The translations under genes and the position numbers were made by a program. From a virus, in the IMG/VR virus record IMGVR_UViG_3300025759_000875, positions 1-20,993 of that record: a stretch of DNA of 20,993 nucleotides; one strand, 5' to 3'. Below the pieces are notes generated by a model. The model was not told the origin of the DNA, ran no database searches, and saw nothing but the letters and a program-made list of their open reading frames with translations. Of the stretch, positions 205-17,070 are shown piece by piece; the first letter of the stretch is position 1; every line of letters begins with the position of its first letter.

Positions 205-372
205 ATGAGAAAAAGTAAGGAATTGAAAAGAATTGAAGCAATGCAACGTCAAACGCGTTACAATAAATTAAATAAATCTCAAAAAATAGATTTATTAATT
301 GCTCGCCGCGGTGATTCATTTAAAGAAGCATTAAAAGTAATGAATTTAAGAGAGGTTAAAACATGTATTTAA
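205..372 (+). CDS. small basic hypothetical protein (55 aa)
   Basis: ATG at 205 follows AAAGAGGTCAAAAC, a strong Shine-Dalgarno block at good spacing. The frame runs to TAA at 370-372 and encodes 55 residues, starting MRKSKELKRIEAMQRQTRY, rich in Lys and Arg and probably mostly helical. It overlaps the next gene by 10 bases: its last codons (GAG GTT AAA ACA TGT) contain the ribosome-binding site and start codon of that gene, which suggests translational coupling. No family is recognised. A small nucleic-acid-binding protein would fit its charge, but this is only a guess. Confidence 0.55.
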   Translation: MRKSKELKRIEAMQRQTRYNKLNKSQKIDLLIARRGDSFKEALKVMNLREVKTCI

Positions 373-779
373 TAGAATATTATAAAAAAGATGATTGCGC
401 TGGCTTTGATAAGTTTAAAAGCAAAGCCAAAGCCTGGCAACACTATAAAACATTAAAGCGGCTTAATTATAGAGTTTCACCGCCGCAGTTAATAGACACC
501 AGCGTAATAGATGCGCTTTACTGGTACGCTGTTGAATATGAGCGGCCCACAATTGAAATATATTTTGTTGACTTTGTAACCAGCAATACAACATTATATA
601 AAAGCTGCTTAATTACCTGGAGCGGCACAGATTACAGCGTTTATGTATTAGACAAACGCGGCCCTGGTTTAATGGTGCGCGCTGCTGGCTTTGATAGCTG
701 TCAACACAAATTAAAACATAATGAATTGATAAAGCTGTGCGCGGCTTGGATTGATCACAACTATATAAAAGAGGTTTAA
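363..779 (+). CDS. hypothetical protein (138 aa)
   Basis: ATG at 363 follows AGAGAGGTTAAAAC, a strong ribosome-binding block. The protein has 138 residues, rich in Tyr, Lys and aromatic residues, with no signal peptide or membrane segment. An N-terminal basic helical part (KSKAKAWQHYKTLKRLNYRV) is followed by alternating hydrophobic stretches that look like beta strands (PTIEIYFVDFV, CLITWSG, YSVYVLDK). I do not recognise the family. It is the largest gene of the plus-strand small-gene row and ends with the same GAGGTT sequence that serves as the next gene's ribosome-binding site. A minus-strand ORF over 613-864 is its shadow. Confidence 0.7.
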   Translation: MYLIEYYKKDDCAGFDKFKSKAKAWQHYKTLKRLNYRVSPPQLIDTSVIDALYWYAVEYERPTIEIYFVDFVTSNTTLYKSCLITWSGTDYSVYVLDKRGPGLMVRAAGFDSCQHKLKHNELIKLCAAWIDHNYIKEV

Positions 780-781
780 AA

Positions 782-949
782 ATGAACTTTGAACAACGTA
801 AGAAAATAGCATTAAAAGTATTTCGCATATTTGCAAGCGTTACGGATAAAATAACATTAAGCAACGATATTATTACGCTGGGCGGCCATCAAATAGCATT
901 TAATGAAGTGTTAACATATTACAACAGATTAAAAGAGGTTAAAAAATGA
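782..949 (+). CDS. small hypothetical protein (55 aa)
   Basis: ATG at 782 follows AAAAGAGGTTTAAAA. The frame runs to TGA at 947-949 and encodes 55 residues (MNFEQRKKIALKVFRIFASV at the start, a middle part DIITLGGHQIAFNEVL, and a Lys-rich end). It shares the ATGA joint with the next gene (ATG at 946). Its C-terminal codons GAG GTT AAA AAA double as the next gene's ribosome-binding site, as in its neighbours. No family recognised. Support comes from the ribosome-binding block, the tight packing and the coupling to both neighbours. Confidence 0.55.
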   Translation: MNFEQRKKIALKVFRIFASVTDKITLSNDIITLGGHQIAFNEVLTYYNRLKEVKK

Positions 950-1221
950 GATTAAATACAATATATAAACCAAATAAGCGCGTTACGTTAAAACGTTTAA
1001 ACGCTGTATGTAATGATTTAAACAATGAATTAAAATTAAATAATAAGCGTTATAATAAAAGCGGCCAGGCGTTAGAATCTTACCAAATTAGCGCGGCTTA
1101 TGGCGGTTATAAATTAGAATACTGGAACAATGGCGGCGCTTATGATCAAACGCACCGCACAACAGCAAAAGAGTTGTATTTAATTATAATTGCTATTCTT
1201 AGCGGTTTAAAAGCGCGTTAA
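946..1221 (+). CDS. hypothetical protein (91 aa)
   Basis: ATG at 946 follows AAAAGAGGTTAAAA and overlaps the previous stop by four bases (ATGA). The 91-residue product begins with a basic, Asn-rich part (NKRVTLKRLNAVCNDLNNEL). A Gly/Tyr-rich stretch (YQISAAYGGYKLEYWNNGGA) suggests a beta hairpin. The C-terminal helix (AKELYLIIIAILSGLKAR) is hydrophobic enough to be amphipathic or membrane-associated. Many small phage accessory proteins share this layout, but I do not recognise the family. The next gene starts at the base after its stop codon. Confidence 0.65.
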   Translation: MRLNTIYKPNKRVTLKRLNAVCNDLNNELKLNNKRYNKSGQALESYQISAAYGGYKLEYWNNGGAYDQTHRTTAKELYLIIIAILSGLKAR

Positions 1222-1362
1222 ATGACAATTATATATCTATTTATTATACTGTTCATTTTATGGCTTATTGTAGGCGCTTTAATGATCATTATAAAGCTTA
1301 TTTTAGCATTTTATGAATTTTACAACGACATAAAAACAATACTAACAAAAAAGAGAGGTTAA
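1222..1362 (+). CDS. small membrane protein (46 aa)
   Basis: ATG at 1222 directly follows the TAA of the preceding gene; the frame ends at TAA 1360-1362. The 46-residue product starts MTIIYLFIILFILWLIVGAL and stays hydrophobic to about residue 30, enough for one transmembrane helix and possibly a short second one, followed by a short Lys-rich tail (TKKRG). No ribosome-binding block of its own is visible, so translation would depend on termination of the upstream gene. It could be a holin-like, superinfection-exclusion or other inner-membrane peptide; nothing in the sequence chooses among these. Its last codons AAG AGA GGT TAA contain the next gene's ribosome-binding site. Confidence 0.55.
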   Translation: MTIIYLFIILFILWLIVGALMIIIKLILAFYEFYNDIKTILTKKRG

Positions 1363-1365
1363 AAC

Positions 1366-1584
1366 ATGGCAAAAAAAGAGATTAATTGCGGCCAGTACAG
1401 AATTGAATTTGATAAAACATATCGAAACGCAATTACTATCATTGATACTAAAAATAATAAATGTATACAAATTGATGATTCCACTTCTGAACAAATAATA
1501 TCATTACATACAATTGGAATTTATACAGATAAGAATAGTTTTATTTATATGTGTAAGCAAGGTACGCAAAAAAGAATAGTTTAA
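1366..1584 (+). CDS. hypothetical protein (72 aa)
   Basis: ATG at 1366 follows AGAGAGGTTAAAAC, identical to the block in front of the gene at 363. The 72-residue product looks mostly beta-stranded: CGQYRIEFD, NAITIIDTKNNKCIQIDD, SLHTIGIYTDKNSFIYMC. It contains three Cys and has no membrane segment. No family recognised. It is the last gene of the plus-strand row: a Rho-independent terminator starts 18 bases after its stop codon. Confidence 0.6.
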   Translation: MAKKEINCGQYRIEFDKTYRNAITIIDTKNNKCIQIDDSTSEQIISLHTIGIYTDKNSFIYMCKQGTQKRIV

Positions 1585-4974: not shown

Positions 4975-5188
4975 CTTTTACCTCTCTTGTTACGTTATCT
5001 GTTATATCAAATTCTTTTTTACCTATCTTATGCACGGCAAAATGCACTTCAGGGTTTTTGCGCTTCTTCATTAGTAGAACCATTTTCTCAACTAAGTGCT
5101 TTTTTTGTAATGCGGTCACTATTTGATCGCTGCGCTCTAAATCTTCTGTGTCAAATGACACACTTCCTGCGTAATGTTCTATTATCAT
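4958..5188 (-). CDS. hypothetical protein (76 aa)
   Basis: The frame is open from a TTG at 5197, but the ATG at 5186-5188 is the better start. It forms an ATGA overlap with the stop of the PAPS-reductase-like gene and has GAGGAAGGA upstream. That gives 76 residues starting MIIEHYAGSVSFDTEDLERS. A helix around LQKKHLVEKMVLLMKKRK is strongly basic; the rest could be a small alpha/beta fold. No family recognised. Its tight coupling to the neighbours on both sides supports it as a real gene. Confidence 0.65.
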   Translation of the reverse strand: MIIEHYAGSVSFDTEDLERSDQIVTALQKKHLVEKMVLLMKKRKNPEVHFAVHKIGKKEFDITDNVTREVKDAMDN

Positions 5189-5988
5189 AATCCGCAAAAT
5201 CCTTCCTCACACATAAACATTTCTAATTGATCACCAAAATCAACACGCTCAAGCGGTGTACATGAACGGTGCAGATATATTGGTTCTTTTAAACCTTTCT
5301 TACTTGAATCTCTGATGGCTTCGTCAATTTTGACTGCTTTATCAAATTCTTCAGGTAACTTTTCTTTTAATTCTTTCCAGTTTTTATTACTGTGATATGG
5401 GCAAAACACACATGATGATTTTGGAGGTACTGGAAAACTGCGATCCTTAAAAAATGATATGCATTCACTGCGCCTCATTCTCATATCTATTAATGGATAG
5501 TGATATGTAATACGTGGTAACATAGACTCTTTAACGCGCTCTATTTCATCCATTGTAATACCTAGCCATACTTCTGTCATTGGCATACGCTTACGTGGTT
5601 TAAGGCCATATATACTGCGTATAGTCCTAATAACTGGCTCAATTTTATATTCCTTGGTGCATTGTCTACGGACCATACCACCATTTTCTGAAAAAGCAGG
5701 AATACTAGCAAAACGCTGACCAGTACTATTTTGCTGATTTAATAAATCTTTATATAAGTTTCTATCACTATTAACATGGATAGGTATGCCATTGTTTAAT
5801 TTGGCCCAGTCCTTTAAGACTTCTAATATCTCATAAGTCATAGGTAATTCTGCACCAGGGTCAGCGAACACTGCATGATCTGCTCTAGGTATATAACCTA
5901 ATGAACTCATCATATACATTGCAGTGGACTGCACGCCTAGGCCTAGTGATATAACTTTAAGATTAGCTGAACTCAGGGTATTCTTCAT
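5185..5988 (-). CDS. PAPS-reductase-like (adenine nucleotide alpha-hydrolase fold) protein
   Basis: About 267 residues of the phage branch of the PAPS reductase/ATP-pyrophosphatase superfamily. The nucleotide-binding loop is ISLGLGVQSTAMY, in place of the classic SGGKDS, and VFADPGAELP follows. Then come RRQCTKEYKIEPV, WLGITMDEIERVK, YPLIDMRMRRSEC, PPKSSCVFCPYHSN with a CxxC pair, and a C-terminal MCEEGFCGL. This order is characteristic of the family. Members are annotated as PAPS reductases but usually lack a sulfate-assimilation context; DndC-type DNA sulfur modification and tRNA thiolation use related folds. The frame is open from a TTG at 6045, but ATG at 5988 cuts the overlap with the upstream gene to 26 bases and starts just before the conserved core. 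Confidence 0.85.
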   Translation of the reverse strand: MKNTLSSANLKVISLGLGVQSTAMYMMSSLGYIPRADHAVFADPGAELPMTYEILEVLKDWAKLNNGIPIHVNSDRNLYKDLLNQQNSTGQRFASIPAFSENGGMVRRQCTKEYKIEPVIRTIRSIYGLKPRKRMPMTEVWLGITMDEIERVKESMLPRITYHYPLIDMRMRRSECISFFKDRSFPVPPKSSCVFCPYHSNKNWKELKEKLPEEFDKAVKIDEAIRDSSKKGLKEPIYLHRSCTPLERVDFGDQLEMFMCEEGFCGL

Positions 5989-6349
5989 ATTGATAAAACC
6001 ATGTACGTTTACTTGTTTGATTATTTTTTGCCGTTTGCAAGGCAAGACTTAGCATTTTTTCATTGTTGTACGGCACAAATGCACATTTATTCATGGGCAT
6101 GTAATAAACTGCCACAACATCGACACGACCACTATTGACATACTTAGCGCAGCGTATTTGTATCGCTGTCCTGGTGGTAGGCTTTGTTATAGTTTTTATC
6201 TGTACACGTTGGAAAGAACCATTGTTTAACTCTACAATAAGGTCAACCTGATCAATATCTACTTCAGGCAAATAGGTGTTATATCCTTGTTTTAATAATT
6301 CTTGGCGCACAGCAAGCTCTCCAATCGTTCCTTTATTCGTGCTATGCAA
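5963..6349 (-). CDS. PD-(D/E)XK endonuclease-like protein (128 aa)
   Basis: A 128-residue protein with the outline of small PD-(D/E)XK nucleases (PF11645-like or Holliday-junction-resolvase-like). An N-terminal helix GTIGELAVRQELLKQGY contains E11; DQVDLIVEL contains D36; RVQIKT gives Q50-x-K52. An NxGRVDVVAVYY strand follows, as expected in this fold. Candidate roles are branch resolution during recombination or self-protective DNA cutting. The only start in frame is a TTG at 6349, overlapping the upstream gene's stop by 8 bases; no good ribosome-binding site is visible. It is the second of four proteins of this superfamily in the operon. Confidence 0.78.
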   Translation of the reverse strand: MHSTNKGTIGELAVRQELLKQGYNTYLPEVDIDQVDLIVELNNGSFQRVQIKTITKPTTRTAIQIRCAKYVNSGRVDVVAVYYMPMNKCAFVPYNNEKMLSLALQTAKNNQTSKRTWFYQYEEYPEFS

Positions 6350-7666: not shown

Positions 7667-7949
7667 CTTTAAACATCTCTTCGCTCATTATAAATACCCA
7701 ATTACCGCGATCCTCTCGCACTGCAACCAGGTTTGCATTCTTAAATGCTAAGTAACTTGCTATCTTCTTACGGCGTTTTACTTGTACATGTAATTCTAAT
7801 TCACCGCGAGTAGCTTTTATATCTATATCAGAAGCAAGTCCAAACGCTCTACCATCACTGCCCCAGGAGCGTTCGGCATCGAAGCCGAGGTCAGAGAGTA
7901 GTTCTTTGACCTCAACTTCGCCACGGTAGCCTTTTTTAGCTACGTTCAA
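7647..7949 (-). CDS. Holliday-junction-resolvase-like PD-(D/E)XK protein (100 aa)
   Basis: A 100-residue protein with the compact plan of archaeal-type Hjc resolvases and related phage nucleases. KKGYRGEVEVKELLSDLGF contains E11, ERSWGSDGRAFGLASDIDI contains D41, and LHVQVKRRKK contains Q56 and K58. A C-terminal strand-helix (NWVFIMSEEMFKDVL) closes the fold. It probably cuts branched recombination or replication intermediates before packaging. The start is a TTG at 7949 forming a TTGA overlap with the SSB gene stop; no ATG is available near the conserved N-terminus. Its position directly behind SSB supports a recombination role. Confidence 0.82.
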   Translation of the reverse strand: MNVAKKGYRGEVEVKELLSDLGFDAERSWGSDGRAFGLASDIDIKATRGELELHVQVKRRKKIASYLAFKNANLVAVREDRGNWVFIMSEEMFKDVLRVE

Positions 7950-8482
7950 AACGGCAGCTCTTCATCTTTACCATCCTGCTTTTTCTCTTCACCTGGCTCT
8001 AGCGGAGTCCCATTTGTAAAAAGATTTTCAGGATTATAGCGAGCTTTTATATCGGCCCACTGTTTTGCTACATCTGCATCAAGTGCCTTTTTAGGATTTG
8101 GAACGACTGTATATTGAGTCTCTAAATCTTGACCACTACGCGTAATGGTAATGTCATATTCCTGCACCTCGCCCCACTCAGTATTGTCAGATAATGCTTT
8201 GATCTGACTTAATATAGTTTTTTGCTTTAGTTCTAAAAACTTTACTTCACCATTAATAGCAATGGTAAGAAACCAAAAATACTTTGCATCTTTTATACCA
8301 GTAGGTATATCGGTTGGCCCATGTGCGCGTTCAGGTTTATTTGAACCTTCAGGCCACCATACATAACCTTGTATTGGCTTTGTAAGGATGCGCATTCTAT
8401 TCTCACCTTGCTCCAATTTTTTCATAAATAAACCGCCTGATTCGCTAGTCGGTATATCCAATCCACTTAAACTATTAGACAT
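7946..8482 (-). CDS. single-stranded DNA-binding protein
   Basis: A 178-residue protein with features of phage SSBs: GENRMRILTKPIQGYVWWPE early on, strand-rich middle segments (FWFLTIAINGEVKFLELK, GEVQEYDITITRSGQDLE) and a disordered Pro/Gly/Glu-rich C-terminus ending DGKDEELPF. That acidic tip with a terminal Phe is the hallmark used by SSBs to recruit partner proteins. ATG at 8482 follows AAGGAAATATAT, a good ribosome-binding site. The next gene, a resolvase-like nuclease, overlaps by four bases, and the primase-helicase is in the same operon. I cannot tell whether it has a classic OB fold of the E. coli SSB or T7 gp2.5 type. Confidence 0.82.
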   Translation of the reverse strand: MSNSLSGLDIPTSESGGLFMKKLEQGENRMRILTKPIQGYVWWPEGSNKPERAHGPTDIPTGIKDAKYFWFLTIAINGEVKFLELKQKTILSQIKALSDNTEWGEVQEYDITITRSGQDLETQYTVVPNPKKALDADVAKQWADIKARYNPENLFTNGTPLEPGEEKKQDGKDEELPF

Positions 8483-8497
8483 ATATATTTCCTTATG

Positions 8498-8782
8498 TTA
8501 ATTTCTGATTGTCTTCTGTTTTCTTTGTGGTGAAGAAACGGAAACGGTGGCCTCGGATTCGTCTGAGGCCACTTGCTCTACTTCATAACCACCTCTCTGT
8601 ATCAAGCCAAATACTTGACCTAATAATTCTTCACTTGGTACTTTGTGAAATCTTATGCCTATCTGTGCATCAGTAGGCTCATATGTAGATGAATAAACTT
8701 TTGCTCTATCAAGTATAGCGCGAATCTTACGCGCTACTCTGATCTGCTCTTGATCTTTTGGTATGTGGACTCGAAAGATCAT
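8498..8782 (-). CDS. hypothetical protein (94 aa) behind a structured leader
   Basis: The frame is open from a TTG at 8842 (114 residues), but the ATG at 8780-8782 gives a more protein-like 94-residue product starting MIFRVHIPKDQEQIRVARKI. An alpha/beta core is suggested by ARKIRAILDRAKVY, AQIGIRFHKV and EELLGQVFGLIQRGGYEVEQ, with a Ser/Arg-rich tail. No family recognised. With the ATG start, the space between the upstream stop and this gene is exactly filled by a 77-nt inverted-repeat element, and no Shine-Dalgarno sequence precedes the ATG. With the TTG start the element would be partly coding. The next gene downstream is SSB, 15 bases away. Confidence 0.6.
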   Translation of the reverse strand: MIFRVHIPKDQEQIRVARKIRAILDRAKVYSSTYEPTDAQIGIRFHKVPSEELLGQVFGLIQRGGYEVEQVASDESEATVSVSSPQRKQKTIRN

Positions 8783-8858
8783 GGGGCGGTAAGAGGATTC
8801 AACTGAGAGGTTAGAATCGCAACATGACGTTGTTGCTTGCAAGAAGGAAACCGCCCCA
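8782..8858 (-). promoter_or_regulatory. 77-nt structured leader element, three-way-junction-like
   Basis: TGGGGCGGT (8782-8790) and ACCGCCCCA (8850-8858) form a perfect 9-bp closing stem, strikingly GC-rich for this genome. Inside it, GATTCAAC (8796-8803) pairs with GTT-A-GAATC (8810-8818, one bulged base). GCAACA (8819-8824) pairs with TGTTGC (8831-8836) around a 6-base loop. The stems nest without conflict. The element starts two bases after the stop of the HTH gene and ends at the ATG of the next gene, so as RNA it would place a strong stem against that start codon. Its length is tRNA-like but it has no proper T arm or anticodon loop. Confidence 0.6.
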
Positions 8859-8860
8859 CT

Positions 8861-9076
8861 TTACTTAAGAGTTGTAATAATCTTTTCTGTTTCATCTAAA
8901 CTTTTACGAGAAATTCTTTTTTCATTGCCAACGTACTTTATACGTAACGTAGCGTTGCATTTGTTTTGTTCTTTTAATTTAACTGCTTTATCAATACTTT
9001 TACGGCTCATGCCAATATAATCGGCAGCCTGATTAATACTTAACCAACCTTGTGTTGGTGTTATAGGTCTACTCAT
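8861..9076 (-). CDS. excisionase-like helix-turn-helix protein
   Basis: A 71-residue small DNA-binding protein of the MerR-like HTH_17 type: GWLSINQAADYIGMSRKSID is the winged-helix recognition unit (about 10-30), followed by a basic part ending RISRKSLDETEKIITTLK. Such proteins act as excisionases or early regulators in temperate phages. Here it lies in the leftward operon directly after cro, a normal place for Xis, while the integrase is read from the other strand. The frame opens at 9112, but the ATG at 9076 begins just before the conserved core and overlaps the cro stop by 8 bases. Whether it is Xis or another regulator is not decided by the sequence. Confidence 0.7.
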   Translation of the reverse strand: MSRPITPTQGWLSINQAADYIGMSRKSIDKAVKLKEQNKCNATLRIKYVGNEKRISRKSLDETEKIITTLK

Positions 9077-9281
9077 TCCAATTAATACTTTCTTCTTGCA
9101 CACCGAGAACAAGTGCTATGTTTTCCTTATGTCTATATTGAAACGTTCTCTCGCCGTTTAACATCATTGTAAGTAGCGCAGGACTGATACCAACAAGCCT
9201 ACATAACTTGCGTTGTGACATGCCATGCTTGCGAAGTAAACTGCGAAAGCGAAATGTGGTATGTGTTTGTATTTGCTCCAT
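9069..9281 (-). CDS. Cro-like XRE-family regulator
   Basis: A 70-residue protein that is almost entirely one HTH domain of the XRE/Cro-CI fold: RFRSLLRKHGMSQRKLCRLV, then GISPALLTMMLNGERTFQYR as the recognition region, and a final helix HKENIALVLGV. It is the first gene of the leftward early operon and is divergent from a repressor-like gene across a 102-bp gap, the standard cro/cI arrangement. No Shine-Dalgarno sequence precedes ATG 9281, so its mRNA may have a very short leader. It probably represses the repressor promoter and its own operon. Confidence 0.82.
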   Translation of the reverse strand: MEQIQTHTTFRFRSLLRKHGMSQRKLCRLVGISPALLTMMLNGERTFQYRHKENIALVLGVQEESINWNE

Positions 9282-9383
9282 AAACGTTGCATTAAGTTAA
9301 ATACACGTTTTATTTTTTTACAAGAATTAATTTGGAATATTTTGGTATATCATGTAATATTAGAGCAACAGAGAGGTTAAATT
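9282..9383. promoter_or_regulatory. divergent cro/repressor control region
   Basis: This 102-bp gap lies between divergent regulators. On the plus strand TTGGAA (9332-9337), a 17-base spacer and TAATAT (9355-9360) make a good sigma70-type promoter for the repressor, followed by GAGAGG at 9371-9376 before its ATG. TTTGGAATAT and TTTGGTATAT are adjacent near-identical 10-mers (9331-9350) overlapping the -35 box and could be operator half-sites. On the minus strand TTCTTG and TATTTA with 17 bases between (9298-9326) are a weaker candidate for the cro promoter. Confidence 0.6.
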
Positions 9384-10178
9384 ATGACGTTATTAAACTT
9401 TAAATCAGACTTAGAAGCAGTAAAGTATATGATTGAAAATAGTGGCGAATCATCTTGGTCACTCGAAAAATCTACTGGCATATCAAGGCAAACAATAGAT
9501 CGCTGGATGAAAGCGGATCATCTTAAAATACGTAGAGCTACTTTGTCTGACTTTGCAAGTAAGCTTAATTATCAAGTACAATACAATAAAGACGGAACTT
9601 CCGTTTCACCACATACAAAAAAACAAGAATCAGGAGACTTAAACATGGAACAACAGAATATGCTTATAGAACTACAAGCAGAGAAAATAAAGCGATTAGA
9701 AGACAGATTATCAAATGAAGCATCACCACATGAATGCAGTATTGACAATGTGTATGGTATAGACCAGGCTGAAATCATATTTAATTTTGATGTTAAAATA
9801 AAGTGGAGCTTAAAAAAGCCTGGCATTTTAGTTAGATACAATGATGATGCAGATAAATACGTACCAAAGATGGCCAATAAACTTGGGTATACTGAATTAG
9901 AAATGGCTGAGTTATTACAAATAGGTGAGATGATAGAGTATAAAGATCATAACATACATAAACTTAGAACCGCCGAGCAAAAAAACGAGATGTTAGGTAT
10001 AATAAATAATTTTATGTCTGCGTTTAATAAAGTAAAATTAAATACTTCATTATTAATTGCTGAAATACCAGTTAAGTATACATCTAAGCAAGGCGTTATA
10101 TATGCTGCAAATGTCGAATATAGAGTTAATTGGATTAGAGGTAAAGGCACAGCGCATATACGATGGCTTAAAGATTAA
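9384..10178 (+). CDS. HTH repressor-like protein with coiled coil
   Basis: A 264-residue protein read divergently from cro, likely the lysogeny repressor or an equivalent switch regulator. The N-terminal HTH covers about residues 12-65, with SLEKSTGISRQTIDRWMKAD as the core. A polar linker follows. Residues 88-115 (MEQQNMLIELQAEKIKRLED) look like a coiled coil for dimerisation. The C-terminal part (about 125-264) is alpha/beta, with IIFNFDVKIKWSL and AANVEYRVNWIRGKGTAHIR strands, and is not the S24/LexA peptidase of lambda CI, so RecA-stimulated self-cleavage is not expected. The start is fixed by GAGAGGTTAAATT before ATG. A second strong ribosome-binding site sits inside the gene before codon 88. 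Confidence 0.75.
   Translation: MTLLNFKSDLEAVKYMIENSGESSWSLEKSTGISRQTIDRWMKADHLKIRRATLSDFASKLNYQVQYNKDGTSVSPHTKKQESGDLNMEQQNMLIELQAEKIKRLEDRLSNEASPHECSIDNVYGIDQAEIIFNFDVKIKWSLKKPGILVRYNDDADKYVPKMANKLGYTELEMAELLQIGEMIEYKDHNIHKLRTAEQKNEMLGIINNFMSAFNKVKLNTSLLIAEIPVKYTSKQGVIYAANVEYRVNWIRGKGTAHIRWLKD
9632..9647 (+). promoter_or_regulatory. internal ribosome-binding site and ATG within repressor gene
   Basis: AGGAG (9632-9636), eight bases, then ATG (9645-9647) in frame with the repressor at codon 88. It closely resembles the start site of the integrase gene (AGGAGACAAAAACATGG). If used, it makes a 177-residue protein that keeps the coiled coil and C-terminal domain but lacks the DNA-binding domain. 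Confidence 0.5.
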
Positions 10179-10217
10179 CACAAAACTTCACCACACTAAA
10201 AACTAGGAGACAAAAAC

Positions 10218-11333
10218 ATGGCAAGCATAAAAAAGTCAAGTCATAGACAATCTTACCGCGTATCATATAAACACCCAATTAAAGGCAAGCGAAGTAATTA
10301 TTTCAAGAATAAAAAGGATGCGGTAATGGCGTTAGCTCACTGGCAGAAGATAGAGCTACTTGTAAAGATGGAGCTAGATTGGGAAAGTGAAATGCATCAG
10401 GCTGAAAAGCCAATTACTGTGCAAGAAATAATTGACTTGCATAAAAACAATGTCTTAGCAAATAAAGACAACATTAAGACGATCCGCACATATAATACGA
10501 TGTATAATAGTTTATTACGCGTATTTCCTGGAGATACTATTGTTCAAAACATTAGAACTATGACACGCGAAATAGAAGGCGTAGAAGTTGTAGGTTGGCA
10601 AATATACAAAAGACATGAAGAGATTGTGCGAGGCCGCAGTAGGAACGGCATTGATAGCTATATGAATGACATGATGATTATGTTTCGCTGGGCCTTTGAC
10701 CAGGAATACATTTCAAAGCCAGTAATGAAAAAGAGCGATAGATATAAGTTTGATGAAAAACCAGCAGTACAGTTTAAAACTTGGTCAACTAATGAAATAA
10801 AAACTTTATTTGAGCATGATGGTTTAAATCAATTTCAGCGTGATATACTCTTGATATATGCTCTTACTGGACTACGAGCTAATGAATTAACTGGTATAAA
10901 TAAAGATCAACCGTATAAAGAGTTACATTGGAAGCATGTGGATTTAGATGCTAAAACAATGCAAGTACAAGTCAAATCTAAGCAACGTATACGCGAAACA
11001 ATTGATATACATGATGATGTAGTAACCATACTGCGTAAATGGAAAAAGCGTGGATATGCAAGGCCACTTAATTTTCATTATGATGACTTAAATGATTACA
11101 TACATGAGATCAGTGAGATTACAGATGTGCAATTTACTTGCCATGATTTGCGCAGAATGAAGTCACAAATAGCGCGTAAAGAGTATCATAATGTAAATGA
11201 TGCTGCAAAAGCAATTGGTGATAAATCAACAGAAGTAGTTAATAACCATTATGCTGGTGAGACTGTAGAAGAACAACGTTTTAGAAACAAAGGCATTGCT
11301 AATAAGCTGTATCAAATTGTTGGGCATAGCTAA
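10218..11333 (+). CDS. int: tyrosine-type site-specific integrase
   Basis: A 371-residue phage integrase that should recombine attP with a tRNA-Leu gene of the host. The basic N-terminus (1-50) looks like an arm-binding domain, residues about 65-165 form the core-binding helices, and the catalytic domain starts near 185. Catalytic residues: R220 in LTGLRANEL, a Lys in QVKSKQR (K253 or K255), H309 and R312 in CHDLRR, and Y345 in VVNNHYAGE. The second motif His or Trp, normally in LGH, is replaced: AIGDKS has D335. Start: ATG after AGGAGACAAAAAC. It is 39 bases downstream of the repressor and its stop abuts the attP region, the usual position for this gene. Confidence 0.93.
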   Translation: MASIKKSSHRQSYRVSYKHPIKGKRSNYFKNKKDAVMALAHWQKIELLVKMELDWESEMHQAEKPITVQEIIDLHKNNVLANKDNIKTIRTYNTMYNSLLRVFPGDTIVQNIRTMTREIEGVEVVGWQIYKRHEEIVRGRSRNGIDSYMNDMMIMFRWAFDQEYISKPVMKKSDRYKFDEKPAVQFKTWSTNEIKTLFEHDGLNQFQRDILLIYALTGLRANELTGINKDQPYKELHWKHVDLDAKTMQVQVKSKQRIRETIDIHDDVVTILRKWKKRGYARPLNFHYDDLNDYIHEISEITDVQFTCHDLRRMKSQIARKEYHNVNDAAKAIGDKSTEVVNNHYAGETVEEQRFRNKGIANKLYQIVGHS

Positions 11334-11374
11334 CTGGTGTTACAAAAAATTCTTGTAACACTATGTAACACCAG
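11334..11374 (+). repeat. inverted repeats directly after integrase (attP arm or terminator)
   Basis: CTGGTGTTACA (11334-11344) and TGTAACACCAG (11364-11374) are a perfect 11-bp inverted repeat starting at the base after the integrase stop. A competing 9-bp hairpin GTGTTACAA/TTGTAACAC (11337-11345 with 11353-11361, 7-base loop) uses the same left arm. No T run follows, so binding sites for integrase are more likely than an intrinsic terminator. Confidence 0.6.
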
Positions 11375-11427
11375 CATATTCCATAATATGCCATAATATG
11401 CCAAACTATGAAATTTAAGTATGTAGC

Positions 11428-11453
11428 AAAAAACCCCACAATAAGTGAGGTTT
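11428..11453 (-). terminator. Rho-independent terminator after the tRNA fragment
   Basis: On the minus strand AAACCTCAC pairs with GTGGGGTTT (9 bp, one G-U wobble) around a 5-base loop, and the T run continues from the stem for six T in all (TTTTTTGC). It lies just beyond the 3' end of the tRNA-Leu fragment, so it can end both the late tail operon in the free phage and the reconstituted host tRNA transcript in a prophage. Confidence 0.75.
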
Positions 11454-11462
11454 CTTGACGAG

Positions 11463-11527
11463 TACCTGGGGGGGGACTCGAACCCCCACGGCTTTACAGC
11501 CAACGGATTTTAAGTCCGTTCCGCTGT
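11463..11527 (-). tRNA. 3' fragment of tRNA-Leu (UAA), attachment core
   Basis: On the minus strand the sequence has an anticodon arm ACGGA-CTTAAAA-TCCGT (11519-11503) with anticodon TAA, a long class II variable arm (GGCTGTAAAGCC), a T arm GGGGG-TTCGAGT-CCCCC and the acceptor 3' strand CCCAGGT plus discriminator A (ending 11463). CCA is not encoded. The D arm and the acceptor 5' strand (expected ACCTGGG) are missing; unrelated sequence takes their place. It is therefore not a functional tRNA gene but the half that restores the host gene upon integration. The plus-strand ORF over it (11455-11661) is an artefact. Confidence 0.85.
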
Positions 11528-11567
11528 CGAGGAGAAAGTGCTATTTTGTAACACTATGTCACACTAA

Positions 11568-12323
11568 TTATGAGGTTAGTTCTCTCATCACCACCTGGCA
11601 TGAGAAAATATTAGGTGCTACTTGCCTAAATGTCAGTGGGCGAACTAACCTTACCCAATGAAATGGGCCAGTTGTATCATCTTCGCTATAAATAAAAGGT
11701 TCTCTATCAGTTACGGCATTAGCGAATGTTTCCATACTGGTTTTATTTGCGCTTGTCATATAATCAAGGCTTAGTGTTATAATCTTATAGTTATTATGCT
11801 TACTTACGTAAAATCTACTAGCGCCAAGTGCTTTTACTTCTTCGCTACCAAAATTATGCTCAGTAATAATATTAGCAGTAGGCTCAACTGGGAATGCTAA
11901 CTTCTCTCCAAAAAATATTTCTGATATACCAGTTAAAGAACCAACAGAACTATTAATTGTCCAATATTGCATAGGCAATACTGTTAAGGTTCTTATATTC
12001 CAACCCACAGCTACATCTGAAATCGTATTACTTATACCATTAAATGCTCCGCTGGCAGAGTTATCACGCTGAATAATAATATCGTTTGTAGTAGCTACTG
12101 TACTATAAATTGCACAAAAATTCGGCGATACAGTTCCACCAAAATTAAATTGCAATCCTTCATTTACGGCCCATCCACCAATTACATCTGTAATGTTACC
12201 ATCTATAGCTCGTGATTCATCGCTTAACACATCACTACTTGTAAAAGAACTGCCAGTGGTAGTTCCATCTGTAAGAGTAGATGATCGACTGTTAATTGAA
12301 TCGTAATAAATTGCACTAGCCAT
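11568..12323 (-). CDS. lectin-like tail protein, paralogue B
   Basis: A 251-residue protein, last of the late operon. The N-terminal two thirds look like a discoidin/galactose-binding beta sandwich (SRAIDGNITDVIGGW, GLQFNFGG, QYWTINSSVG, SEIFFGEKL). The C-terminal part (about 170-251) contains EPFIYSEDD, HWVRLVRPLTFRQVAPNIFS and ends VVMRELTS. The adjacent gene encodes a protein of the same plan with matching blocks in the same order, so the two arose by duplication. Position after the tape measure and large tail-tip genes suggests a tail-tip or receptor-binding component recognising surface sugars. Its stop is four bases from the attP arm repeat. Confidence 0.72.
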   Translation of the reverse strand: MASAIYYDSINSRSSTLTDGTTTGSSFTSSDVLSDESRAIDGNITDVIGGWAVNEGLQFNFGGTVSPNFCAIYSTVATTNDIIIQRDNSASGAFNGISNTISDVAVGWNIRTLTVLPMQYWTINSSVGSLTGISEIFFGEKLAFPVEPTANIITEHNFGSEEVKALGASRFYVSKHNNYKIITLSLDYMTSANKTSMETFANAVTDREPFIYSEDDTTGPFHWVRLVRPLTFRQVAPNIFSCQVVMRELTS

Positions 12324-13081
12324 TATGCGCTACTTTCTTCTTTAAGTGTCAATGATGTAGAGAATGCATTGGTAGCAACTTGATTAAAAGATGGTGCTTT
12401 TATTAAGCGTACATTATGATATGAAGACTCATCATAATATACAAATTTATGTAAATTAGCATAATCAGATATAAGTAGCTCAAGCAAAGACTTATCATTA
12501 TCTGTTACTAAAGGTATATTTATTTCCCATGTACGAAGCTCTGTATCTATTTTATTAGAATATTCTGTATTGTCATATGAACTAGCGACAAAGCTGTTAA
12601 ATGGCTTTGTAATCTTTATATCTAGCGATCCTATATTATAAACTTCTCCAAAGTAAACTTCAGTTGGCGCAAAAGAACCACTTGCTCGTAAAGTCCAATA
12701 CCTACTGCTTGCAGCGGTAAACTCAAAAAAGTTCCACCCAGTAGTAAGATCAGTAGTAATTAAACTTGTTGATGTAGTATTGCCAGTCGTAGCAGCACTG
12801 GTCAGCACTTGAATATTTGTAGATGTATCAGATGCTACATAAACAGCAATGAAATCAATTGTCTTGCTTTCTCCAAAGTCAAAAAGTAAAGCATCATTAG
12901 CACCCATATTTGATACTGCTGTCGCTATGCTCCTATCTGTTACTCTTGCCTCATTAGTTATATAATCGCTTCCATCATCAGCTAAAACAAATAAAGCGCT
13001 ACCACTATCAAATGTTGATGCTTTATCATCAGCAGTTAGCGTATGAGTTTTTTTGTTGTCAAAGTATAATTTATGTGCCAT
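12323..13081 (-). CDS. lectin-like tail protein, paralogue A
   Basis: A 252-residue protein with the same plan as its downstream neighbour: an N-terminal galactose-binding-like sandwich (EARVTDRSIATAVSNMGAND, LLFDFGESKTIDFIAVY, GWNFFEF, RYWTLRASGS, TEVYFGEVY) and a C-terminal domain with KFVYYDESS, NVRLIKAPSFNQVATNAFS and an end LTLKEESS. Shared blocks with the neighbour include DG/DR near residue 48, YWT, E(I/V)(F/Y)FGE and RL(V/I)...F(R/N)QVA.N.FS. It probably sits at the tail tip and binds a host glycan; a distal-tail-like role for the C-terminal domain is possible. One-base overlaps on both sides show tight late-operon packing. Confidence 0.72.
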   Translation of the reverse strand: MAHKLYFDNKKTHTLTADDKASTFDSGSALFVLADDGSDYITNEARVTDRSIATAVSNMGANDALLFDFGESKTIDFIAVYVASDTSTNIQVLTSAATTGNTTSTSLITTDLTTGWNFFEFTAASSRYWTLRASGSFAPTEVYFGEVYNIGSLDIKITKPFNSFVASSYDNTEYSNKIDTELRTWEINIPLVTDNDKSLLELLISDYANLHKFVYYDESSYHNVRLIKAPSFNQVATNAFSTSLTLKEESSA

Positions 13082-15180
13082 TACGCTTTAAATACTTCCA
13101 TAGCTTTTATTTTAAGACTGTTAGGTGTGCGAGTAGTTTCTATTATTCTAAACTGATAATCAGTATATGCTGCACTGCTATCACGCATACGAAAATCTGC
13201 TGGTGGATCGCTAAACGTTATCATATCTCCAATCTCAAGATTCCAGGCAGTGGCATCAAGTATTTCACATTCTGCTGTCACGCGCTGATGTTTGTATAAT
13301 CTATGTAAATTTACTGGGCCTTCAGCTTGATTAACCCAGTCTAAATTTTGTGTTAATACACCATCATTATCTCCAAATGAGTAGGCGGTTTTTATAGTGG
13401 AATCTGAACTGCTTGAGCCACTCAGATATGTACCTTTAGCTGGGTGCTTATCAAAATTATACAATACTTTCCAAAGCACTTGACTTAATGGTATTGTGCC
13501 AAAACTTGGATTACGATACATGCTTTGTGTTAAATTTTTATCTATGCTTTTACTGGTACTATCTTCTAGCAAGTAATATATCTTTCCATCACTAGGCCTG
13601 ATATAGCTTATAAAACCAGCTTCTTGTTGTAATTTGTTTAGCGCATCTTGAACAGTCATATTTTCATTATCAATCGTACATCTAACACTATCAGTAAAAT
13701 TTGCTCTTACATCAGACTCAGAAGTAGCATCGATATTTAATGATCCAGGCCCAAAATTTCTTAAGATATTATAATGCACCTCTGTTGGCGTAAAATTATT
13801 TGCTCCAATGCTTGTATAACCTGACTCTATAGTATCAGCATCTGTACCAACATAAAGCACTGGTGGCAGTTCTTGATCTCGCGCTTTACCGTTTTGCGTA
13901 TCAATTGGAATGTATGTAGTAAATTCAATATACATTTCAGCGATTTGTAGTGTAGCACTACCACTACCAACACCTTGATAATATCCATATATAATGCCGT
14001 TTAAATTCACGCCAGCAGCATTATTATTCCATTCAGTAGTAATGTCTTTTTTAGAGTCTACAAATGATCCTGACAAATTACCAATTACTGGACTCCAGTC
14101 ATTACCGCCAGTTATTGCTTCATTAAGTATAGTATCACCATCGCCAGCTTTTATCCATACTTCTACACCAGCAGGAATATCACTTTTTGCTCTGATCACT
14201 GCACGCACAGATTTTATTGTTCCATTAAGCGTACCACTCATCTCACCAAAAACACCAACTGGATCATCACCGCCTTGTGTTGCAGTGACTTGCACATTTG
14301 TATTATTATCATTGTCAATTGCGTTAGCAATTAATCCAGTGTCATCTATGGTATTAGGTATGTCAGATGCCGAAGCATCTGTATTTGGAAATAATCTTAC
14401 TGTCTGTCGAAAATATGATTTATTAGTATCAGGATTATCATCATTAGATACAGTTACATTGTTTGTATTAAATTTTGTTGTTGAACCAGTGCCAGCTTGC
14501 TGTATAGGCACAAACTTGTCAATACCATCGACATATATGTGCGGCCTTCCACCTTTATCTGTTAAACCTTCGCTATAAAACAAAGTATCTCGATCGTGAG
14601 AAACAAATTTTACTGGTCTTAATTGTTTACTTTCACATACTCCTGAGTTAGTTTCATTAGAGCTGTTTGCAGTGTACGCACCATAGCTTAATGTTTTAAA
14701 CATTTTATCGCCAGGCATATTGTACCCTGCTTCAGCAGTTACTTTTTCTTGTAATAGTGTATTAAATCTCCACGAAGCATAATCCTCAACATTAACAGAT
14801 ATTTCTTTTTCAGTTAGTTTTGATACGCCAATTACTCTGCCAGTAAATACTTTTAAGCATTGTCCTATCGCAGATGTTGTACCATTTGTAGCAAGATAAA
14901 TAACAACTGACTTATTTGTACGCTCACCAAATGTGACATCATAACCAGCATTCGCTATACGTAGTGTAATATTGCTTGTGCGGCTTGTCCTATTTCGTAA
15001 ATCAATACTAGATGTTATACTAGGAGCAGCCATTAAACGGCCATCATAAGCCTGGGAGTCTACTGTTACATCTCTAGTGCTAAGATATATAGTTGAACTA
15101 CCACCAATCTGCACCAATGGGAATATATCGTTGTTACGTTTAAGAGAGTTTGTAAAATTTGCATGTGGAGATAATGCCAT
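13081..15180 (-). CDS. large tail-tip/baseplate hub-like protein
   Basis: A 699-residue virion protein encoded directly after the tape measure gene, the usual place for the distal tail and hub proteins. The N-terminus (about 1-150) is beta-rich (FPLVQIGGSSTIYLSTRDVT, NITLRIANAGYDVTFG, CLKVFTGRVIGVSKLTEKEI), consistent with a hub or tube-like fold. A middle part (about 230-440) is Asp/Asn/Gly/Ser/Thr-rich and may be an inserted carbohydrate-binding-like domain (SGTLNGTIKSVRAVIRAKSD). Then VQDALNKLQQEAGFISYIRP and GKIYYLLED recall phage tail proteins of the gp27-like/tail-associated class, and the C-terminus (LNWEIGDMITF-like strands) fits. No peptidase or lysozyme motif is seen. Function is inferred mainly from position. 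Confidence 0.7.
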   Translation of the reverse strand: MALSPHANFTNSLKRNNDIFPLVQIGGSSTIYLSTRDVTVDSQAYDGRLMAAPSITSSIDLRNRTSRTSNITLRIANAGYDVTFGERTNKSVVIYLATNGTTSAIGQCLKVFTGRVIGVSKLTEKEISVNVEDYASWRFNTLLQEKVTAEAGYNMPGDKMFKTLSYGAYTANSSNETNSGVCESKQLRPVKFVSHDRDTLFYSEGLTDKGGRPHIYVDGIDKFVPIQQAGTGSTTKFNTNNVTVSNDDNPDTNKSYFRQTVRLFPNTDASASDIPNTIDDTGLIANAIDNDNNTNVQVTATQGGDDPVGVFGEMSGTLNGTIKSVRAVIRAKSDIPAGVEVWIKAGDGDTILNEAITGGNDWSPVIGNLSGSFVDSKKDITTEWNNNAAGVNLNGIIYGYYQGVGSGSATLQIAEMYIEFTTYIPIDTQNGKARDQELPPVLYVGTDADTIESGYTSIGANNFTPTEVHYNILRNFGPGSLNIDATSESDVRANFTDSVRCTIDNENMTVQDALNKLQQEAGFISYIRPSDGKIYYLLEDSTSKSIDKNLTQSMYRNPSFGTIPLSQVLWKVLYNFDKHPAKGTYLSGSSSSDSTIKTAYSFGDNDGVLTQNLDWVNQAEGPVNLHRLYKHQRVTAECEILDATAWNLEIGDMITFSDPPADFRMRDSSAAYTDYQFRIIETTRTPNSLKIKAMEVFKA

Positions 15181-15183
15181 GAT

Positions 15184-17070
15184 CTATGCGTTAGCTTCAC
15201 GCCTTAATTCTTCTTTTATAGCAGGAAGCACTTTAGTTCTTACGTGATCTTCATCACCAATCATATCTCCTGCAATATTAATTGTGACACCACCGCTTGG
15301 TTCGCCAGTATTATTCATCTGCGCTAAGTTTTGCAGGCCAATACTATTAACAGCACTGCGCTGCATGATAAACTCACCTGATTGCGCCATGATTGGCACG
15401 TTATCCTGGCCCTGCACCATACCACCAGTAGCAAAACGCTGTATACCATTATTTTGTATCAAACCACCAGTATGACCTATAAAGCCTGCAAATGCTTGCA
15501 GTGCAGCACCAAATGGCATTCCTGCACCACCACTCTGCATTAATAACGCACCTATGGTTGTAAGCAGGCTTTTCATTTTATCCTCTGCACTTGCACCTCT
15601 ATTAGCCAATACTTGTAAAGCTCCTGATACTGTAGTAACTGCATTAGCTGTTTTTTTGAACTGGTCTTCAAGGTCTTCAGCGGCTGTCTTACGTATTTGT
15701 TTTTTAGTTTCCTCTGCGTTTTCTTCTAATTCAATTTGTTCATCCAAGAATGCTAGAGTTAAAACAGATAATTTTTCTTGCATTTCCTTAATTCTTGTTA
15801 ATAAATCTATTCTACCTTGTTCTTCTTCTTGCGCTTGCATTTCTCGTTGACGCTTTGTTATCTCAGCTTGTGCGGCTTCAAATTCTGCTTGTTTACCATT
15901 TAACTTCATTGCCAAAGTTTGCGTGTCTAACAAACTTAATAATGCCATTTCTTGACTAGTTATTGCATCTCTTAATCCTAATTTTTCTCGAAGCATTTCT
16001 TTTTCGACACCAAGTAATGCTTTACTATCAATAATAGCAAATTTTAATGTAGCAATTCTTTTATCTTGTCTCTCCTTGAGCTTTTTTTCTTCATCTGTAA
16101 GTTCTTTTGTAGATGTGATTTGTTCGTCTTGCTTTAGCTTTAAATCAGCAATTTCCATTTTTAATGCATGAGCCACCATACTTTGCTCTTTAAACGCGAA
16201 AGTAGCAGGCATCGCAGCTTTTATCATTTCTGATAAAGATTCTGCAAGCTCTCCAAGTTTTACAGATAACTTTTCAAAGCTACCAGCAAAAGCTATACTT
16301 AGTGTATCACTAAACTCTTGAACTTGTGTATTTGATGTTCTAATCTTATCAGAAGAGCTTTCTATTTCCTCACCAAATGCTGCAACTTTATTCCTACCTT
16401 GTTCTAAACCAGCATTAATAAATGCTGTTTTCTTTTCCATATCTGACATTGCAGCGACAGTAGTGTTATTTGCTTGTGCGAACGCCTCATATGCCTCATT
16501 GGTTTTAATCATTAAACCAATATTATCAAGCATCAATCTTGATTGTCTACCAAGACCAGTAACAAAAGACTCTAAACTAGATGTAGCATCTTTTCCTAAT
16601 GCTCTACCCAAGCGTTGAGCAATGTCAAACATCTCTGCAAGCTCATCTGTGCTACGCGCTACACCAAGTAACATAGCGTTGTTTGCCTGGCGCATAAGCT
16701 CCATATCAGTTACTGTGCCATTAGTAGCTTTTCGTAATTTTTCTAATGTATCTTCATTTAAATCAGCAGCCACACGTAAACTGGTAAAACCTTTTGATAA
16801 ATCCTCTAATTCAGCAGCTCTAGTAACCTCAGTTAGTTTTCGTAACGCAAATACAAACGGCGTTAGTGCAAATGTAGCAAGCAAGACTGTGTTTCTGAAT
16901 CTACTTACTGCAAGATTAGCGCCTTTGTATGCTTGGTTTAATTTGCGCATTGCACCGCGCGTTGTTCTTGCTGCTAATGCTTGTTGCCTTAGAGCGACAG
17001 TGGTTTCATCAATGCGCTTTTTTGCATTGGTAAAACCTTTACTTCTTATTTCAATTATGAATTTTGCCAT
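15184..17070 (-). CDS. tail tape measure protein
   Basis: A 628-residue, mostly helical protein that sets tail length and is injected or released at infection. It opens with a basic helical part (KGFTNAKKRIDETTVALRQQ) and a hydrophobic helix near residues 62-78 (TVLLATFALTPFVFALRKL). A long Ala/Glu/Lys-rich helical section follows, with coiled-coil stretches around 300-480 (for example AAQAEITKRQREMQAQEEEQ). A Gly/Ala-rich hydrophobic region comes near 500-545 (TIGALLMQSGGAGMPFGAAL), then a C-terminal VTINIAGDMIGDED segment. The two frameshift-linked chaperone ORFs lie immediately upstream, as expected. By the rule of about 0.15 nm per residue the tail would be roughly 90-95 nm. It overlaps the upstream ORF by 20 bases. 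Confidence 0.88.
   Translation of the reverse strand: MAKFIIEIRSKGFTNAKKRIDETTVALRQQALAARTTRGAMRKLNQAYKGANLAVSRFRNTVLLATFALTPFVFALRKLTEVTRAAELEDLSKGFTSLRVAADLNEDTLEKLRKATNGTVTDMELMRQANNAMLLGVARSTDELAEMFDIAQRLGRALGKDATSSLESFVTGLGRQSRLMLDNIGLMIKTNEAYEAFAQANNTTVAAMSDMEKKTAFINAGLEQGRNKVAAFGEEIESSSDKIRTSNTQVQEFSDTLSIAFAGSFEKLSVKLGELAESLSEMIKAAMPATFAFKEQSMVAHALKMEIADLKLKQDEQITSTKELTDEEKKLKERQDKRIATLKFAIIDSKALLGVEKEMLREKLGLRDAITSQEMALLSLLDTQTLAMKLNGKQAEFEAAQAEITKRQREMQAQEEEQGRIDLLTRIKEMQEKLSVLTLAFLDEQIELEENAEETKKQIRKTAAEDLEDQFKKTANAVTTVSGALQVLANRGASAEDKMKSLLTTIGALLMQSGGAGMPFGAALQAFAGFIGHTGGLIQNNGIQRFATGGMVQGQDNVPIMAQSGEFIMQRSAVNSIGLQNLAQMNNTGEPSGGVTINIAGDMIGDEDHVRTKVLPAIKEELRREANA

Follow-up and report, generated by a model that had tools for sequence, protein, structure and literature searches.

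The question raised by this locus is what a strongly structured 77-nt segment is doing between the stop codon of one early phage gene and the start codon of the next. The window, that is, the whole stretch of DNA analyzed here, is 20,993 nt long and comprises positions 1–20,993 of the IMG/VR virus record IMGVR_UViG_3300025759_000875. Its features are collected in Table 1.

Position and fold of the element

The original prediction, made from the nucleotide sequence, described three compatible stems filling the gap between a stop codon and an ATG that lacks a Shine–Dalgarno sequence, and this description is reproduced here. The segment is flanked by the HTH_17 stop codon (8863–8861) and the ATG at 8782, no Shine–Dalgarno sequence precedes this ATG, and folding of 8858–8782 on the minus strand yields a 9-bp stem P1, a 6-bp stem P2, and a stem P3 of eight pairs with one bulge. 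The minimum free energy of the element is –28.1 kcal/mol (z = –5.6), and none of 200 dinucleotide shuffles is as stable. Only the predicted 8-bp stem has to be modified: it is present in the window, but its top three pairs are not kept in homologues, where P3 is conserved as 5 bp (4 in some) closing a 13-nt loop.

The element does not correspond to a tRNA, as had been stated from the outset, with ARAGORN reporting none and no Rfam tRNA match at the element. At the gathering threshold, no Rfam family matches the window element or 14 relatives; below the family cut-offs, nothing above chance is observed for the window element, and the search for intrinsic terminators (GC hairpin, short loop, U run) identified no site at the element. 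The readings as a tRNA, a member of a known Rfam family, or a terminator are thus ruled out by model and site searches. Coding from the TTG at 8842, the possibility that the original prediction had set against itself, is ruled out as well, the frame being broken by in-frame stops in L022, L026, L034, and other relatives. Literature searches, in which subscription journals and preprints were thinly covered, yielded no description of this RNA.

Table 1. Features of the window discussed in the text (positions in nt from the first letter of the window)
Feature	Position	Strand	Remark
Five small genes, function unassigned	205–1584	+	nearly identical ribosome-binding sites AAGAGGTTAAAA/AGAGAGGTTAAAA
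Candidate PAPS reductase-like protein	5185–6045	–	replication region; likeness by eye
SSB-like protein gene	7946–8482	–	query used for collecting relatives
94-aa protein gene, function unassigned	8498–8782	–	start codon at the end of P1
Structured antisense RNA element, candidate	8782–8858	–	77 nt; closed by P1, two inner hairpins
P1 closing stem, 3' arm	8782–8790	–	final base is the A of the ATG of the 94-aa gene
Hairpin P3, presents the antisense loop	8796–8818	–	fold; 8 pairs and one bulge in the window
Antisense loop CUAACCUCUCAGUUG of P3	8800–8814	–	complementarity to the Shine–Dalgarno sequence of the divergent gene
Hairpin P2, 6 bp	8819–8836	–	fold; contains AACGUCAU
Joining segment CCUUCUUG	8840–8847	–	group A alignment
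P1 closing stem, 5' arm UGGGGCGGU	8850–8858	–	fold; all cells paired in relatives
HTH_17 (excisionase-like) gene	8861–9076	–	stop abuts the element
Cro-like HTH gene	9069–9281	–	first in the early operon
Probable –10 box TAATAT of the repressor promoter	9355–9360	+	putative, from sequence reading and conservation
Target CAACAGAGAGGUUAA, 5' leader/Shine–Dalgarno of the repressor-like mRNA	9366–9380	+	13 pairs and one mismatch with the loop
Divergent repressor-like gene	9384–10178	+	weak N-terminal Cro/C1-type HTH; C-terminal domain without assignment
Tyrosine integrase	10218–11333	+	downstream of the repressor-like gene
tRNA-Leu (TAA)-like fragment	11464–11531	+	follows the integrase; probable attachment site of the phage

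Relatives and conservation of the structure

All relatives of the locus are metagenomic or unannotated contigs. The search with the 94-aa protein yielded seven loci with the element, and the search with the repressor-like gene yielded L011 and L012, which have an element in the corresponding position that is clearly unlike that of the window; scans with the repressor protein also retrieved phages that share its C-terminal domain only, in differing context. Alignment of the SSB protein provided 43 loci, several of them near-identical copies; for 42, the region preceding the SSB gene was available. In this upstream sequence, a search for long-range inverted repeats identified a P1-closed element of 60–94 nt in 40 loci, and the remaining two, L055 and L060, carry it too (the same contigs as L095 and L100, respectively). 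In relatives the element sits just upstream of the small gene and/or SSB.

Among phages, a DNA-level search gave no match to the window, and the INPHARED set contains no relatives of the repressor or the HTH_17 protein and only matches at 26–32% to SSB. As for the host, the genome collection searched contains no exact copy of the tRNA-like putative attachment sequence, and SSB has no relative in the genome contig collection searched.

The elements fall into group A, comprising window-like elements of the form GGGGCGG...CCGCCCC with CUUCUUG; group B (L041, L046, L053); group C, with CUAG-ended P1 and the loop UCUAUCCU; and group D (L049–L052). As the covariance model R1 recovers window-like members only, the groups with other P1 sequences were recognized by their place and pairing.

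Relatives keep the stems through changes on both sides of a pair, which was the check on covariation proposed originally. In the 14 distinct sequences of group A, P1 and P3 together are 98% paired, with both-sided changes in four pairs; P1 alone is paired in 100% of cells, with three pairs changed on both sides. The covariation score of this group is 0.196, compared to 0.121 in shuffles, none of 500 reaching the observed value, and slid structures fail in the same test. In the ten sequences of groups C and D, P1 is again 100% paired, with seven double-change cells. P2 is always a hairpin, though its sequences are unrelated. Hence the stems, the folding energy, and the compensatory changes in relatives establish the 77-nt element as real. 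The joining segment CCUUCUUG is nearly invariant in group A, while the loops and P2 vary, and no partner was found for it.

The position of the element relative to the flanking codons is also regular. The distance from the upstream stop to the downstream start is a multiple of three in 35 of 40 loci (60, 63, 75, 78, 81, 87, 93, or 99 nt), the exceptions being 62 nt in L047 and 70 nt in four L054-type loci; as few independent changes are involved, this regularity is an observation and not a proof. In group A the variation in length occurs mostly within P2. In-frame stops break the frame in many phages, and so the element is not plain coding sequence. The stop codon at the beginning of P1 and the start codon at its end suggest that translational coupling may be a second function, and the originally proposed role in non-standard initiation gains some support, as an ATG or GTG is placed at the P1 end without a Shine–Dalgarno sequence in nearly all relatives.

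These same observations, the stop and start codons at the two ends of P1, the missing Shine–Dalgarno sequence, and the distances divisible by three, could be taken to mean that the element is mainly a cis-acting device of the small gene, serving stop–start coupling or a cut that makes the small gene leaderless. We consider this unlikely as the main role. L098 and L100 retain the element while the homologue of the 94-aa gene is absent, so the element is independent of the small gene and not simply its leader; moreover, a cis-acting role leaves unexplained the covariation between the loop and its target, described below.

Complementarity of the loop to the first divergent gene

The P3 loop CUAACCUCUCAGUUG is antisense to CAACAGAGAGGUUAA, the Shine–Dalgarno region of the divergent gene starting at 9384, which we call repressor-like from its position and a weak HTH match. 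When both strands of the 21-kb window are considered, no partner except the loop's own complement suits the loop better than the ribosome-binding site (RBS) of this gene, which scores 28 compared to 22.5 for the next one.

Nearly every relative has a loop antisense to the RBS of whichever divergent gene comes first, be it a repressor or an integrase, and this relation is held by unrelated sequences. The loop/target combinations include CUAACCUCUCAGUUG/CAACAGAGAGGUUA, AUCUACCUUA/UAAGGUAGAU (L053), AUGUCUAUCCU/AGGAUAGACAU, and UCCUCGCACC/GGUGUGAGGA (L050 and L051), and in L040 the loop CAUGUCUAUCCU pairs with the target AGGAUAGACAUG. In L023–L028, L031–L033, L036, L039, L043, L045, L049, and L059 the repressor is absent and the integrase comes first; in these loci the match falls on the integrase RBS, weakly so in L059. 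In the window, where the integrase is the second gene, its RBS does not match the loop (score 13.5). In L038 the repressor has been lost, and its start region survives, together with the target site, as a short relic ORF before the integrase. L023–L028, L033, L036, and L039 are window-like phages without the repressor, some of them also without the HTH_17 gene.

The mRNA of the repressor-like gene probably begins near the target, which would then lie within its first ~20 nt. This estimate comes from the putative –10 box TAATAT, which is kept in many relatives and was not reported by a consensus promoter scan. With an mRNA start so close to the target, pairing would cover most of the 5' leader together with the Shine–Dalgarno sequence.

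The presence of the same short sequence on the same DNA strand at two places, both in the regulatory region, may also be read at the DNA level, with the shared 10–14 bp being an operator bound by Cro or the repressor at the divergent promoter and in the element. Several features make this quite unlikely: the second copy is inside a loop, in an RNA fold that is conserved and covaries; the site covers the Shine–Dalgarno sequence of whichever gene comes first, repressor or integrase; the two copies are oriented as antisense pairing requires, with G–U pairs tolerated in L050, L051, and L054; and the common sequence is no obvious palindrome.

The fit between loops and targets was assessed by permutation. 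RNA cofolding was uninformative, because a loop–target pair inside P1 is pseudoknot-like and cannot be formed by a nested model, and opening and duplex energies were used instead; a loose gapped target search was discarded as too permissive. For 28 distinct pairs, the mean ungapped score is 25.1 with own targets and 19.1 (sd 0.8) with swapped ones, and the accessibility-corrected energy is –11.1 and –6.8 kcal/mol (sd 0.56), respectively, with 0 of 100,000 permutations reaching the observed value in each case; as the relatives represent few lineages, the all-pair permutation partly measures differences between groups. The own pairs all fall between –8 and –15 kcal/mol after correction for accessibility. 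Within group A alone, loops fit their own targets better by score (p = 0.003) and by energy (p = 0.03), with p = 0.08 if the whole element is scored instead of the loop, and groups B, C, and D, too small or uniform, give no significant result when tested separately.

When the inner element is compared with the whole locus, the own RBS is among the top 12 of about 9,000–17,000 alignments in 25 of 28 loci, and ranks first in 8–9 of them (hand count). The loci weak in ungapped scoring are L044, L046, and L059; out of these, L046 is good by energy, and in L044 and L059 a bulged match, read by eye, is possible. Four more loci, obtained by a further scan and a second look, are outside the permutation tests. 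In L095, where the first gene is a different one, 12 pairs are formed with its RBS and start, the match being picked automatically. L100 has nine pairs to the integrase RBS (one of them G–U), while L082 and L098 have eight pairs each to the RBS (one G–U in L098); in these three loci the automatic search placed its best match at other sites, and the pairing with the RBS comes from reading by eye, so they provide weaker support.

The specificity of the loop may be partial, since GAGGTTA is common to other RBSs of the window: it is found upstream of the plus-strand genes at 363, 946, and 1366, which score 22, 19, and 22, compared to 28 for the repressor-like gene. The five small plus-strand genes at the beginning of the window could be secondary targets of the loop. 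That the loop is a general anti-Shine–Dalgarno decoy with no specific target, as pyrimidine-rich loops and the frequency of Shine–Dalgarno-like sequences such as GAGGTTA might suggest, is very improbable, given that loop sequences vary in step with the RBS of one gene, that own targets outperform swapped RBSs, and that in most loci tested the core is found at only a few sites besides the element and the first divergent gene.

A second contact is observed in the window between AACGUCAU in P2 and the complementary sequence AUGACGUU at the repressor start. L022, L034, and L035 have similar contacts, which are not general; the permutation test for this contact was negative, and we treat it as suggestive only.

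Computation thus shows that the structure of the element, its place, and a locus-specific complementarity that covaries with the target are conserved.

Proposed function and comparison with known phage RNAs

We favor, with a probability of about 0.8, the reading that the early lytic transcript carries the element as an antisense RNA, which acts in trans and blocks translation of the first gene of the lysogeny operon. The element is read in the same direction as the early genes (cro, HTH_17, the small gene, and SSB), and we infer that it is transcribed with them. Firing of the early promoter would yield the element RNA, in which P1 would hold a compact domain and P3 would present the loop complementary to the Shine–Dalgarno sequence of the gene that comes first in the divergent operon. 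This RNA may act inside the mRNA or be cut out at the foot of P1. Pairing of the loop with the repressor or integrase mRNA would block ribosome binding, the repression being presumably translational rather than based on decay; with no new repressor or integrase, the phage would commit to lytic growth, and the RNA would do a Cro-like job. As the match is kept in dozens of relatives despite changing letters, the element looks like an RNA switch silencing dormancy as soon as this marine phage begins to multiply.

The original prediction had suggested an RNA controlling translation or processing of the SSB-proximal genes. Our data support a conserved structured RNA with a link to translational control, whereas the SSB-proximal genes are probably the wrong target, the pairing being with the RBS of the divergent gene. 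A broader version of the antisense reading would have the silencer re-evolve its loop to follow whichever gene comes first, with P1 also serving as a translational junction that connects the stop codon to the start codon and maintains the frame over an insert that is not translated, and would make such elements common in uncultured marine temperate phages; this extension is tentative, and we rather doubt it in full.

If the antisense reading is correct, an RNA layer is added to the lysis–lysogeny switch of uncultured marine temperate phages. The relation is predictive, as the loop names the target gene and its RBS, and can be tested with plasmid reporters. Moreover, as elements in the same place have differing loops matched to differing targets, the family supplies natural compensatory mutants.

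By mode of working, the closest known system is C4 of phages P1 and P7 (RF01695), a compact RNA that matches the element in size. C4 pairs around the RBS of a regulatory gene, and its complementary segments are thought to be placed in loops (PMC12197685); the element, likewise, has a loop with complementarity to an RBS, that of a regulatory gene in its own phage. Among the references of PMC8546580, one title describes P1 c4 as a processed 77-base RNA, and RNase P processing of C4 is the subject of a title cited in PMC11143913 (Hartmann, 1995). C4 has two complementary segments; for the element, the suggestive second contact is seen in the window and the three relatives named above. C4 blocks the antirepressor (icd/ant) and so protects lysogeny, whereas the element has the repressor or integrase as its target and is encoded in the lytic operon; the element would therefore work like C4 with the politics reversed. 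The C4 model has no match at the gathering threshold in the window element and 14 relatives, and none at E ≤ 10 in the window and L011 elements. Given this lack of a match, the repressor or integrase target, and the location in the lytic operon, we do not assign the element to the C4 family.

The P4 CI RNA, OOP, and sar are more distant from the element than C4. OOP RNA overlaps its target, the cII mRNA, on which it acts with RNase III decay. The element is not a cis-antisense RNA of this type, as it lies about 0.55 kb from the target leader, with 8–14 nt of complementarity between separate places. OOP of lambda, directed against cII, is an antisense RNA that favors the lytic cycle (PMC12197685). 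The sar RNA of P22 blocks translation of a phage regulator by antisense pairing (PMC12197685); it acts against ant and favors lysogeny, and the element would act in the opposite direction. In the satellite phage P4, the control region gives rise to CI RNA, a structured antisense RNA that is processed (PMC4825925). CI RNA promotes termination on its own transcript and maintains immunity, whereas the element targets the RBS of a divergent mRNA. Hence most of the phage RNAs compared here (C4, P4 CI, and sar) protect lysogeny, with OOP being the exception on the lytic side.
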